Assembly: GCF_001457775.1 (NCBI RefSeq)
Contig: NZ_CYSG01000003.1
Location: 124,001-188,000, forward strand
DNA length: 64,000 bases
Reading direction: 5' to 3'
Source of the DNA: Phaeobacter sp. CECT 5382
GTDB taxonomy: Bacteria; Pseudomonadota; Alphaproteobacteria; Rhodobacterales; Rhodobacteraceae
The translations under genes and the position numbers were made by a program. The first letter of the stretch is position 1. Each line of letters starts with the position of its first letter. The notes under the pieces are model-generated. The model was not told where the DNA came from. It ran no database searches and saw nothing but the letters and a program-made list of their open reading frames with translations. Positions 30,937-35,005 of this stretch are shown here, piece after piece.

Positions 30937-31827
30937 TCAGCGGCGTATCGCCAGGCGTGCCACCAGCCAGGAGACCAGCATCATGGCGCAGTCGACCAAC
31001 ATCCAGGGGCGCAGATGTTCAGTGTCAGACATCTCATAGGGGAGCAGATACAGCCCCAGACCAGAAAGGCTGCTGGGAGAGGCAAACACAAGCAGAGCCA
31101 CTATATTGTTGAAAAAATGCACCGCGATAGCAGGCCCCAGCGTGCCCGCCCGCGCGGTGAGATCCGCCATCAACAGACCAAAAGCCATGGCCCAGAGACA
31201 AATCAGGACAGCATTTTCGCCCGCCTCGATCGGCATGTAATGTGCCAAACCAAACAGCAGTGAAGGGGCCACAAGCCAAAGCAACGGTGAGCGAAAGCGG
31301 GCCGCCAGAGCCTGTTGCAGGTAGCCCCGAAAAACGATCTCTTCGGCGCCGGTCTGGATGAGAACCGCTGCCAGTGACAGAGGCAAAAGCCCCAGCCAGT
31401 GCCCAAATTCCAGATTGGGAACCAGCGGCAGGCCTAGGGAATAGGGCGGCAGCAACAGCACTGCAAAAGCCAACACCAACAAGAACGAAAAGACCCTGCG
31501 GAACTGGCGAACCAACAGCCCCATCGGCCCAATCACGCTCTGCAAAGAGCGCTGCTGAAACCATCGTGCCGCCAATGCCACCCCGAGCACCAGAAAGGCG
31601 AAACTAGCCAGCAACACCAGCATCGCTGGCGGATTTCCACCATCAATCAACCCCTCTATCCAGGCCCCCTCCGCCAGATTCAACACCAGCAGGAATGTTA
31701 CACTGGTCAGAGCATAGCTCACCGCTGCAATCAGCCCGACGCCCAACAAAAGCCGCCAGATTTGCGGTTTGGGCCGGGCCGGTGCAACGAGCGCCTCGTG
31801 GGCGCCATAGGCAAGGTTATCTACCAT
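30937..31827 (-). CDS. CPBP family intramembrane metalloprotease
   Basis: 296 residues with about eight membrane helices. EEIVFRGYLQQ near residue 180 carries the Glu-Glu and Arg of the CAAX-protease/bacteriocin-processing (CPBP) motif 1. GLAHYMP and AVHFFNNIVAL supply the histidines of the later motifs, so it should be catalytically intact. Substrate unknown. The start at 31827 overlaps the end of the ABC-like gene by 11 bases; an ATG at 31839 is an alternative. Translational coupling to the 1062-residue ABC-like protein suggests a shared job. Confidence 0.85.
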   Translation of the reverse strand: MVDNLAYGAHEALVAPARPKPQIWRLLLGVGLIAAVSYALTSVTFLLVLNLAEGAWIEGLIDGGNPPAMLVLLASFAFLVLGVALAARWFQQRSLQSVIGPMGLLVRQFRRVFSFLLVLAFAVLLLPPYSLGLPLVPNLEFGHWLGLLPLSLAAVLIQTGAEEIVFRGYLQQALAARFRSPLLWLVAPSLLFGLAHYMPIEAGENAVLICLWAMAFGLLMADLTARAGTLGPAIAVHFFNNIVALLVFASPSSLSGLGLYLLPYEMSDTEHLRPWMLVDCAMMLVSWLVARLAIRR

Positions 31828-34800
31828 TTTTGGCGTCATGTTTGGGGTCCGCCTTTTGCTGCGTATTCCCGGCGACCTCATCAAAGGTAGCGCCTTCAGG
31901 CAAGCCCGCCTCGCCCGCAGAAGCAGGCTCAAAATCAGATAATGGATCGGGTGCGGCATCATGCACGGAATCGCGCATCGATCCGCTTAGGGACACCAAA
32001 TGACCCGCCACCGTTTCCAACAATTGCATGGCGACCCCGGCATCGCTTTCGATCACCGCGCGATATTCTTCGGCTCCGATGCGCAAGAACAGACAGTCCT
32101 CGGCAGCACGCAGATCCAGCTCGCGTGGCTGGCGCAGGATCACTGCCAGATCACCGATCAACCGCCCCGGCTCCACCACTGATATGGGCTGCTCTCCCGG
32201 AGCGACCCCAGACCAGAACAGTTCTGCGCGCCCCTTCAGGCAAAGATAGACCGCATCCCCCATTTCACCTCGGGCAAAGACCAGATCCCCCTGTGCCACG
32301 GGATGCCATTGCGCCGAAAACGCCAAAAGCCGCTGGTTGCGCGCATCCAGTCGCGCAAAAAGCTCTGCGCGGGCGATTTCCTCGAATTTCTGACGAAAAT
32401 CCTCAGCGGCCAGGTCTTCGGGGCTGCCGCTGGAGCGGCGGTCCACCCCATCGATACGCCCGTCCCGGATCTCGACAAACAGGTCATAGCGTTCGGGATG
32501 GGCGAATTCTTCCTCCATAAAGATCATGGTCGTGGTCGGCATCAGGTCACGCAGGCGGTCGCGGGTGCGCAGTCGGCTTTCGGAATCATGACTGGCCAAA
32601 GCGCGATCCAGAATCAACACATCCGGCCGCTTGATGGCCGCCCGCGTAAAGGCTGCGCGCTCACGAAACAATGGATCCAACAGCGCGCCACCGAGACCGG
32701 TTGGCAGGTCATAAAGGATCAACGCCAGACGTTTTTTCAATCCGTAAGCTGCCAAAACCTCTGCAACCAGCGCCTCGACCTGATTGCCCTTTTCCCCGGC
32801 CCGCGTCGATATCTTTCCATAGAGCGCGTTTTCCAGAACCGACAGGCGTGGAAAGAAGCCCTCTGGTGTGAGCGGACGGAACAATCCTTCGGAGCGGGCC
32901 GTCAGGGTAGCGGCACTGGCGGCGCGAATGCGCAGGATGCGTCGCTTGAAATCTTCTGGAAAACCGGGGCCGATCTGTTCTGCGGACAACAGAAAGGGCA
33001 CTGTCATCAGCACCGCGCGGGCCTCATCCGGGAGCTCTGCCTCCCCCTTTTCACTATAAAGTTCAGCGGCCTTGCACAGGCGGCAATACAGATCTTCGTC
33101 AATGCCAAGACGCTGAAACAAAGGGTGGTCGAAATCTTCGCGGCCGAAAGTTTTGATCAGGGTTTCCGCCACTCCAAGGCCGATGCCCAGGGTTTCCGCG
33201 CTAAGGTGTTGCTCGCGGATCACCTGATGAAACAGGCTGCCCGGCAACATCAGCTCCTCTGGAAGGATCTCTCGCGCGGGCGAGGCGAAGAGAATATTGC
33301 CCGCCAGCGGCATCGCTGGATTAAAAACCTCCGGTTCAAAATGGTAGACCACGCCGTCCAGCCCTGCCCGGCGCAGACGTTTTCGGATCAATGGCCGCAG
33401 CCGAATGATATGGTCTTTCAACGCCTGATGGTTGCCCTCCGGCAGTTTGGCACGCAGGGTCCGCTGGAATATTTGCTCATCAACTCCCATGGCTTCGACC
33501 AGTTGAAACCACCAATCGCGCAAATCCCCTTCGGAGCCCAGCCCCGCAAGGGCCGGGTTGACCCAATCTGCGGTCAAAAGATCAGGGCTGTTGCCGGTCC
33601 GCCGAGCCTCGTCCATCTGGCGCAGCGCATCATCCGACGGGTCAGCCAGACTGGGCGTGCTGCGCAATGGCATCAGGATATTGTCCCCAAGCGAGCCCGA
33701 AAACAAATAGGGCTGCGCAGAGGCATACCCAACCCGCGCGGCAAGGACCCCCTGATGCAGCGCTTCCAGCCGGTGCCCCGCCAGTGTGATCGAACCACGG
33801 CTGGGCAGCACCTCTCGGGTCAGCAACTGCCCCAGGGCAGCACGTTCGGCGTCGTTGCTGCTTTTGACCGCGACCCGTGCGCGTGCGGGGATGGTGAGCG
33901 ACAGATCCTCTAGGATCATATTGCCATCGGCATCACGCAGCGAGACATTGCGAAACACCAGATCCCCGCGCAGGTGCGGCAGAGTTGTGGGCGCCCCGTC
34001 CAGCAGATTGGCATCAATCATTCCCTTGGGAGCAAAGCGACTGGTCATCACTTTCCAGCGCAGCCCCATGTCCTGCACCTGATTGTAATAGGTCAAAAGC
34101 TCTTTCCAGGGCGCCGAAAGGTCCTTGTAGGCAGCCAGCCCCGCCACCAATGCGCCGACCGTGATCTCTCCCCTGATCGCCAGAACACCACCTGCCGAGT
34201 AATAGACAAAGGGTGTCATATGCCCGATCAGATTGTTGAGGAATTTCATGAAGTATTTCTTGTTGTAGATCCGGCGGCGGATCTCGAACAGACGTCCCAA
34301 CCGGTCAGAAATCTGCGCCAGACGATACCGCCAGCCGCCGTTGCCACGCAGATCGGATATCCCGGCGGCGGTCTCGCCTATCTCTGCGGCCAGGGCGCGC
34401 ACTTCCTGGATCCGGTCCTTGTTCAGCAGGTTGATCTGGCGCTGCAACATCGGTATCAGCCAGGCCTGTAGCGGGATCAGCGCAATTGAAACTAGCCCAA
34501 ACCAGACGCTTTGTGCAAACAGGAAGGCCACGATGGTCAGCATCTGTCCCGCCTGAAACACCGGCTGCGCCAGCGCATCCCCCATCAACCCGCCCATCGG
34601 CTCACTTTCGGACGTGATCATCGACACCAGCTCACCCTGGCTGGTGGTGCGAAAGTAGGGTTTCGGAAACCGGATCATCCGGTTGATCAGACTATAGCGC
34701 AGGCGCCGCAACAGGCGCTCTGCCACCACACCTTTGGCCGTATTGAGCCGCATCTTCAGCAGTCCCGCCAGAACCACCGCAGCCAGAAAGGCAAAACACA

Positions 34801-35005
34801 GCACCAAGAGGTAGTCCACCTGAGACATCTCTGTGCCCAGGACCACGACCTGAGGCTCTGCTGCACCAATGGCGTCATTGATGATCCGCTTGGGCAGCTC
34901 CAACGACGCATAAAGAAACGGAAAGGTCAGCAGGGTCAGCGCCAAAAGGCCAAGTTGCTGACGCTTGGAATAACGCCAGATAAATGAAAACAGCGTTGGA
35001 GGCAT
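31817..35005 (-). CDS. ABC-exporter-like protein with degenerate ATPase and cNMP-binding domain
   Basis: 1062 residues. Residues 15-310 are an ABC exporter membrane domain. An ATPase-like domain starts near 346, but where a Walker A should be it reads VAVKSSNDAERAALGQL (379-394), with no GxxGxGKS. Walker B is VLILDR with Arg801 in place of the catalytic Glu, and the LSGGQ region reads PTGLGGALLDPLF. About 265 residues (450-715) are inserted, with two further Q-loop-like segments near 558-573 and 713-730. Residues about 900-1005 form a cyclic-nucleotide-binding fold. The start at MPPTLFSFIW was chosen over 31 upstream codons. It overlaps the CPBP protease gene. Confidence 0.82.
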   Translation of the reverse strand: MPPTLFSFIWRYSKRQQLGLLALTLLTFPFLYASLELPKRIINDAIGAAEPQVVVLGTEMSQVDYLLVLCFAFLAAVVLAGLLKMRLNTAKGVVAERLLRRLRYSLINRMIRFPKPYFRTTSQGELVSMITSESEPMGGLMGDALAQPVFQAGQMLTIVAFLFAQSVWFGLVSIALIPLQAWLIPMLQRQINLLNKDRIQEVRALAAEIGETAAGISDLRGNGGWRYRLAQISDRLGRLFEIRRRIYNKKYFMKFLNNLIGHMTPFVYYSAGGVLAIRGEITVGALVAGLAAYKDLSAPWKELLTYYNQVQDMGLRWKVMTSRFAPKGMIDANLLDGAPTTLPHLRGDLVFRNVSLRDADGNMILEDLSLTIPARARVAVKSSNDAERAALGQLLTREVLPSRGSITLAGHRLEALHQGVLAARVGYASAQPYLFSGSLGDNILMPLRSTPSLADPSDDALRQMDEARRTGNSPDLLTADWVNPALAGLGSEGDLRDWWFQLVEAMGVDEQIFQRTLRAKLPEGNHQALKDHIIRLRPLIRKRLRRAGLDGVVYHFEPEVFNPAMPLAGNILFASPAREILPEELMLPGSLFHQVIREQHLSAETLGIGLGVAETLIKTFGREDFDHPLFQRLGIDEDLYCRLCKAAELYSEKGEAELPDEARAVLMTVPFLLSAEQIGPGFPEDFKRRILRIRAASAATLTARSEGLFRPLTPEGFFPRLSVLENALYGKISTRAGEKGNQVEALVAEVLAAYGLKKRLALILYDLPTGLGGALLDPLFRERAAFTRAAIKRPDVLILDRALASHDSESRLRTRDRLRDLMPTTTMIFMEEEFAHPERYDLFVEIRDGRIDGVDRRSSGSPEDLAAEDFRQKFEEIARAELFARLDARNQRLLAFSAQWHPVAQGDLVFARGEMGDAVYLCLKGRAELFWSGVAPGEQPISVVEPGRLIGDLAVILRQPRELDLRAAEDCLFLRIGAEEYRAVIESDAGVAMQLLETVAGHLVSLSGSMRDSVHDAAPDPLSDFEPASAGEAGLPEGATFDEVAGNTQQKADPKHDAKNGR

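Follow-up and report, generated by a model that had tools for sequence, protein, structure and literature searches.

We analyzed a gene in a 64,000-nucleotide stretch of DNA from Phaeobacter sp. CECT 5382 (contig NZ_CYSG01000003.1, positions 124,001 to 188,000; hereafter the window), whose genome assembly comprises 4.1 Mb in 56 contigs. The gene encodes an ATP-binding cassette (ABC) exporter-like pseudo-ATPase. In this protein, the catalytic motifs of the nucleotide-binding domain (NBD) have been replaced throughout the close clade, the helical subdomain of the NBD occurs three times, and a cyclic-nucleotide-binding (CNB)-type domain is fused to the C-terminus. Fused forms group as one clade, and the wider family is linked to, and co-occurs with, genes of a glycan operon. 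We place at about an even chance that the protein exports or gates the product of that operon independently of ATP, transport itself being a prediction. The features of the gene, all on the minus strand, were as follows:

31817..35005, minus strand: whole gene, ABC-exporter-like pseudo-ATPase fused to a CNB (cNMP_binding) domain (open reading frame, Pfam)
34016..35005, minus strand: membrane domain (ABC_membrane), residues 1-330 (Pfam and substitution rates)
33668..33970, minus strand: first NBD piece, residues 346-446 (phmmer against exporters in the PDB)
33830..33877, minus strand: lost Walker A, RVAVKSSNDAERAALG, residues 377-392 (motif count in 50 sequences)
33431..33706, minus strand: helical-subdomain repeat 1, residues 434-525 (hhalign)
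33131..33352, minus strand: helical-subdomain repeat 2, the extra copy, residues 552-625 (hhalign)
32678..32881, minus strand: helical-subdomain repeat 3, residues 709-776 (hhalign)
32435..32680, minus strand: second NBD piece, residues 776-857 (phmmer, alignment)
31970..32419, minus strand: CNB (cNMP_binding) domain, residues 863-1012 (Pfam, structure comparison)
32105..32167, minus strand: altered phosphate-binding cassette, GRLIGDLAVILRQPRELDLRA, residues 947-967 (conservation in the close set)

The encoded protein is 1062 amino acids (aa) long, with an ATG at 35005, a stop codon at 31819..31817 and no internal stops. The longest open reading frame (ORF) opens at a GTG upstream; relatives share the ATG at 35005 as their start, and it was adopted because M1 was invariant among 45 aligned sequences. 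A Pfam scan up to an E value of 1 returned just three families: ABC_membrane (PF00664, residues 41-291, E 4e-20), the transmembrane domain (TMD) of exporters; cNMP_binding (PF00027, residues 904-989, E 2e-12, above the cut-off); and ABC_tran (residues 366-465 only, below the cut-off). Matches to SbmA_BacA and to C39 peptidase were absent. A preliminary description of this gene, made from the window alone, had reported an intact exporter membrane domain and a C-terminal cyclic-nucleotide-binding-type domain, and both hold. It had overlooked a stretch of about 280 residues that separates the two pieces in which the NBD aligned to PDB chains with phmmer, one running up to residue 446 and the other from about residue 754. 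The second piece carries a signature region without LSGGQ, a Walker B at D800-R801, the D-loop SHD and an invariant E831. The full-length structural model had a mean predicted local distance difference test (pLDDT) of 68.7, with a poor membrane part. Within it, residues 346-857 aligned with GlcV-type NBDs (VIA, root-mean-square deviation (rmsd) 2.4 over 142 residues), as expected of an NBD fold.

The close clade was compiled from one genome-contig scan, which gave 51 loci, 49 of them with an open frame >900 aa; with the window protein this made 50 sequences. GxxxxGK[ST] was found at the Walker A position in 0/50 and LSGG in 0/50, in line with the missing P-loop Lys and unrecognizable LSGGQ described previously. 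The residue expected to be the catalytic Glu of Walker B is R801 in the window protein, again as described, and varied in the clade (K 25, R 10, H 5, N 5, others 5), while the Walker B Asp, D800, was retained in 38/50. The D-loop was nearly invariant (S and H in 50/50, D in 49/50). At the H-loop site, placed by alignment at position 832 and likewise overlooked in the preliminary description, Asp was found in 36 sequences and His in none; the neighboring E831 was present in all 50. A His stood one residue further, at 833, in 32/50, where the window protein has Glu. Several replacement residues at or beside the lost catalytic motifs were thus invariant. Pairwise ratios of nonsynonymous to synonymous substitution (dN/dS), where computable, ranged from 0.01 to 0.23 across the domains and from 0.4 to 1.6 in the 50-residue tail; the membrane domain was among the most conserved parts (0.01-0.07). 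Since motif loss was common to all 50 sequences, replacements were fixed and dN/dS was low outside the tail, the catalytic site was replaced and maintained and did not decay. The motifs are indeed lost, as a decaying gene, a frameshift or an assembly artifact would have it. The same shared loss, invariant replacements and low dN/dS refute that explanation, which we regard as scarcely conceivable. It is well supported, at the level of sequence, that the window-clade protein does not pump by means of an ATPase of its own, ATPase activity having presumably been lost; the earlier wording "rather than a pump" stands in this sense, as the catalytic motifs are absent throughout the clade.

The helical subdomain, the unit from Q-loop to signature, is present once in an ordinary NBD. 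Comparison of family profiles with hhalign indicates that the NBD "insert" holds two extra copies of it, giving three in all. Repeats 2 and 3 matched at a probability of 98.7 (E 2e-16), repeats 1 and 2 at 95.2 (E 2.8e-8) and repeats 1 and 3 at 72.1 (E 3.4e-5). The remaining pairs among the nine segments compared reached ≤5.1%, with the CNB segment, which had 9 usable columns, offering no control. The repeats share the motif [ST]-h-x-[ED]-N-[LI]-L-F-G and, after it, a helix that ends in G-L-x-x-x-h-x-x-x-G; residues 625-709 fall outside them. When the region between the NBD pieces was modeled alone (residues 445-770, 37 sequences), mean pLDDT was 89.7. Comparison of this model with the PDB gave no recognized fold (best Foldseek match E 0.43; best Z 2.6 in a second look with VIA), which does not prove a new fold. 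The insert was also considered as a foreign domain, and this was set aside in favor of the two extra copies given by the profile comparison.

The wider family was examined in a class search of 385 alphaproteobacterial genomes (ABC threshold E <= 1e-20), 129 of which contained ABC relatives. From the matches listed, 128 loci were retained, some genomes contributing two. This set omits the source genome, the TMD-only relatives L114-L118, the own-genome loci L060 and L075-L083, L073 (a duplicate of L213), L124-L133 and fragments in G139, G178 and G324; four of the 128 loci are incomplete or split (L179, L194, L203 and L212). Only 12 loci were CNB-fused. Among the 116 unfused loci, 106 contained an ORF of the cyclic nucleoside monophosphate (cNMP) type, either directly downstream by a strict rule (90) or overlapping or longer (16). 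The unfused proteins are themselves unusual. At the Walker A Lys site, 75 of 115 had Lys and 35 Arg, and the following position held D/E in 95 and S/T in 5. Of 113 proteins, 15 kept the Walker B Asp (N 58, S 28) and 68 the catalytic Glu. Walker A GK[ST], D-E and His occurred all together in one locus, L088. In 73/112 unfused proteins (L084-L113, L134-L213), D/E after the Walker A Lys was paired with Asn or Ser in place of the Walker B Asp, an apparent exchange of Mg-binding residues; as few rows carry the ancestral states, this two-way count does not amount to a test of covariation. By these residue counts the whole ABC family is unusual, and the window clade is its extreme case. P-loop loss is universal in the close set and not across all homologs: GK[ST] occurs in 6 of the 127 wider relatives in which the region is present, a marginal number that leaves the loss in the window clade standing.

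A quick TMD tree of 88 rows contained the 12 class-set fused forms, 11 other fused forms, the window protein, 59 of the 112 complete unfused forms (55 drawn at random, together with those of six named forms that the draw had missed) and five TMD-only relatives. The fused forms made up one side of a branch (Shimodaira-Hasegawa-like approximate likelihood ratio test (SH-aLRT), 96), and this single clade is consistent with a single fusion. Among fused forms, the GK dipeptide was found only in L071 and L108, the earliest-branching there. The source genome holds a second fused pseudo-ATPase on contig C22 (L129:6910-9286; 44% identical), which is truncated where the contig ends; a full-length relative of this type-2 paralog, L123 of a related genome, also lacks a P-loop. 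A further family member lies on pSYMB of Sinorhizobium meliloti Rm41 (L219, 47% to L107), in an unannotated record, and could serve as a genetic model.

These comparisons bear on whether the protein might still be powered by ATP, through non-canonical binding or by pairing with an unlinked canonical half-transporter. The NBD fold is retained, and the Walker A Lys and catalytic Glu persist among unfused relatives at the frequencies given above. The window clade, however, lacks Walker A, LSGGQ and the catalytic Glu, the type-2 paralog, whole in L123, also lacks a P-loop, and no canonical half-transporter was noticed beside the gene in the part of the window inspected, 27-40 kb. ATP power is accordingly quite unlikely in our estimation.

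The CNB domain is well formed: model residues 863-1015 compared with the CNB domains of Crp, PKG and PKA, which bind cGMP or cAMP, at a Z of about 17 (VIA, e.g., rmsd 1.9 over 136 aa). Its phosphate-binding cassette is altered. In the close set, the cassette Arg was kept (R961, 50/50) and Asp stood in place of Glu (D952, 50/50). The window clade reads G-D-L...R-x-[LMF]-[DN], residues 962-964 being x-[LMF]-[DN], so that the small residues after the Arg are lost. In contrast, the separate cNMP proteins of the unfused loci (n = 106) carried the canonical GE..R[TS]A[TS] (Glu 102, Arg 106, T/S next 105, then Ala 105), and the other fused forms L065, L068, L069, L071, L072 and L108 retain GE...R[TS]A. 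In the window clade, the CNB site is thus altered as well as the ATP site. The source genome has six class III cyclase matches, and cyclic nucleotides are therefore probably made there. The preliminary description had proposed a cAMP- or cGMP-gated sensor or channel. The CNB fold, the cyclase matches and the invariant cassette Arg speak for that proposal, of which the domain assignment stands. Gating is weakly supported, because the cassette is altered in the window clade, both at its Glu and after its Arg, and canonical in the separate proteins. In addition, the cNMP-type domain of HetC bound ppGpp and not cAMP, according to PMC10986499. Binding of a cyclic nucleotide by the window CNB domain is thus doubtful, and cAMP or cGMP gating very unlikely.

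The gene neighborhoods connect the family to a glycan operon, an association that the window alone could not reveal and that suggests a glycan exporter or its regulator. An ortholog of GT28a or GT4a was found in 91/116 unfused loci, divergent to the ABC gene in most loci inspected. In the source genome, the operon lies on contig C13 (L128:5594-11678) and comprises, in this order, GT28a, GT4a, GT4b, a histidine phosphatase, GT28b and a deacetylase-like gene. Pfam assigned Glyco_tran_28_C to both GT28-like proteins, Glycos_transf_1 to the GT4s and His_Phos_1 to the phosphatase; the last gene had no Pfam match, and its Sulfitobacter ortholog is publicly annotated "polysaccharide deacetylase family". 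Three Sulfitobacter plasmid records were examined, of four Sulfitobacter matches listed. In each, a nucleotide-sugar dehydrogenase was followed by six like-annotated genes in the same order and then by a window-type ABC gene, all on one strand. The Sulfitobacter window-type protein was 54% identical to the window protein, and the six operon genes of S. dubius were 52-70% identical to those of C13; the S. dubius ABC protein also lacks a P-loop. In two other roseobacter records examined, the operon was not near the ABC gene. The order in Rhizobium etli was glycosyltransferase (GT), GT4, GT, ABC and cNMP protein (WP_004679746).

The ABC gene and GT28a co-occurred. GT28a was present in 127/385 genomes, about a third (class search, E <= 1e-40); 123 genomes had both ABC and GT28a, 6 had ABC only, 4 had the GT only and 252 had neither. 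G252, of the window's own family, lacked both. The ten other genomes in which fused forms were identified all contained GT28a, but not adjacent within the flanks examined. Several points weigh against reading the window protein as an exporter or gate for the glycan pathway: the Fisher value of 2e-87 for co-occurrence ignores phylogeny; GT28a or GT4a stood beside the ABC gene in 0/12 class-set fused forms (flanks of 1.5-3 kb); the window gene (L060) itself has neither alongside; and the TMD part of the full-length model is of low confidence. From the 0/12 count, the operon could have been restricted to unfused forms, which the three Sulfitobacter records contradict and which L045, a Granulosicoccaceae metagenome-assembled genome with GT28b and PDA upstream, contradicts in part.

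An Opp/Yej-like peptide importer was also observed near the source-genome glycan operon (L128:15948-18975). Its permeases were 66-69% and its substrate-binding protein 56% identical to those of Azospirillum, where the importer adjoins the fused ABC gene; in Rhizobium etli it lies upstream of the GTs. Besides L128, the loci concerned are L214:1-5118 and L215:10167-16148.

Directly downstream of the window gene, with candidate start codons that overlap its end, lies another membrane protein gene:

30937..31839, minus strand: Rce1-like/CPBP membrane protease (Pfam E 1.6e-16)

This protease was the next downstream ORF in 32/48 close loci, and such a neighbor was limited to roseobacter relatives. 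It was rejected as a general partner because of this count and because it was absent from Moritella, Granulosicoccus and some roseobacter loci.

TMD-only relatives were also encountered. The class search gave five open frames of 361-425 aa with natural stops (L114-L118), and no NBD was found among the ORFs listed around them. Two more lie within a copper operon on roseobacter plasmids (L217:5773-7077 and L218:5773-7077), where the genes are TolC, a copper oxidase, a copper-binding protein, an azurin-like protein, the TMD-only protein and a cytochrome c; the L217 protein is 434 aa long and has ABC_membrane without an NBD. The idea that TMD-only relatives are part of the same branch was set aside, since those in the quick TMD tree fell into two deep long-branch groups of unsure placement.

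A glycan exporter or gate without ATP drive is proposed because the catalytic site is replaced and relatives lie in or beside a sugar-polymer operon; the TMD-only relatives, together with the proton-driven precedent of SbmA, were counted in its favor. The protein would be a homodimer of ABC-exporter fold that does not hydrolyze ATP. It would serve a conserved alphaproteobacterial glycan pathway with two GT28-like proteins, two GT4s, a histidine phosphatase and a deacetylase-like protein. Through the membrane domain of the protein, a glycan or lipid-linked glycan intermediate may pass across or out of the inner membrane, with a substrate or proton gradient, or coupling to glycan synthesis, as the driving force. 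The dead NBD, triplicated helical subdomain and CNB-type domain could together form a gate on the cytoplasmic side that responds to a small ligand or to a partner protein.

The main rival is a non-transporting regulator or scaffold, comparable to the SUR receptors, that senses a cytoplasmic signal through the CNB domain and passes it on to the glycan machinery or to another membrane enzyme. It would account for two nucleotide sites that are altered and yet under purifying selection, for class-set fused forms that lie away from the operon, and for the pairing of close roseobacter relatives with the CPBP protease. However, the membrane domain is among the parts under the strongest constraint, and in the Sulfitobacter loci examined the annotation of the operon includes no further gene for an exporter or flippase. 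We consider such a regulator unlikely.

More tentatively, the preferred exporter or gate could be one outcome of an exporter family that has been quitting ATP catalysis in stages. The unfused forms, with apparently exchanged Mg-binding residues, a triplicated subdomain and a separate cNMP protein, would be an early stage; after the fusion, motifs would have been lost and both nucleotide sites re-tooled, giving an ATP-independent, ligand-gated flippase for a conserved surface glycan, and the TMD-only forms would be a further step. If true, one family would offer, as a natural series, ABC exporters that range from near-canonical to ATP-dead, and how an ABC membrane domain works without ATP would become testable. 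Public records label the relatives, rhizobia and Azospirillum among the named ones, "ABC transporter transmembrane domain-containing protein", and an exporter with this generic annotation is now tied to a conserved glycan operon. A search of the open-licence PMC literature found no paper on the ABC family.

Among known systems, the window protein resembles type I/ABCB-like exporters (MsbA, PCAT1, TmrAB, McjD) in ABC_membrane and NBD fold, with sequence matches to PCAT1 and others. It differs from them in lacking Walker A, LSGGQ and the catalytic Glu, and in having three helical-subdomain copies and a C-terminal CNB domain. CFTR and SUR are alike in that an ABC exporter fold has turned into a gated channel or regulator, whereas in both at least one nucleotide site still works and no CNB domain is known. 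SbmA is not known to have an NBD. In the SbmA/BacA SLiPT family, an ABC-fold membrane domain is driven by the proton gradient and not by ATP, and SbmA imports peptides, according to PMC13316013. In contrast to this peptide importer, the window protein keeps a dead NBD and a CNB domain, and the context of its family is a glycan operon. HetC of Nostoc PCC 7120, a peptidase-containing ABC transporter (PCAT), is likewise an ABC exporter bearing a cNMP-type domain, which was needed for function as reported in PMC10986499. As described there, the HetC domain is N-terminal, and the protein has both a C39 peptidase and a catalytic Glu that is essential, whereas the window protein has a C-terminal CNB domain and neither peptidase nor catalytic Glu. 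HetC shows that an ABC exporter can depend on a CNB-type domain, and that such a domain does not have to be a cAMP binder.

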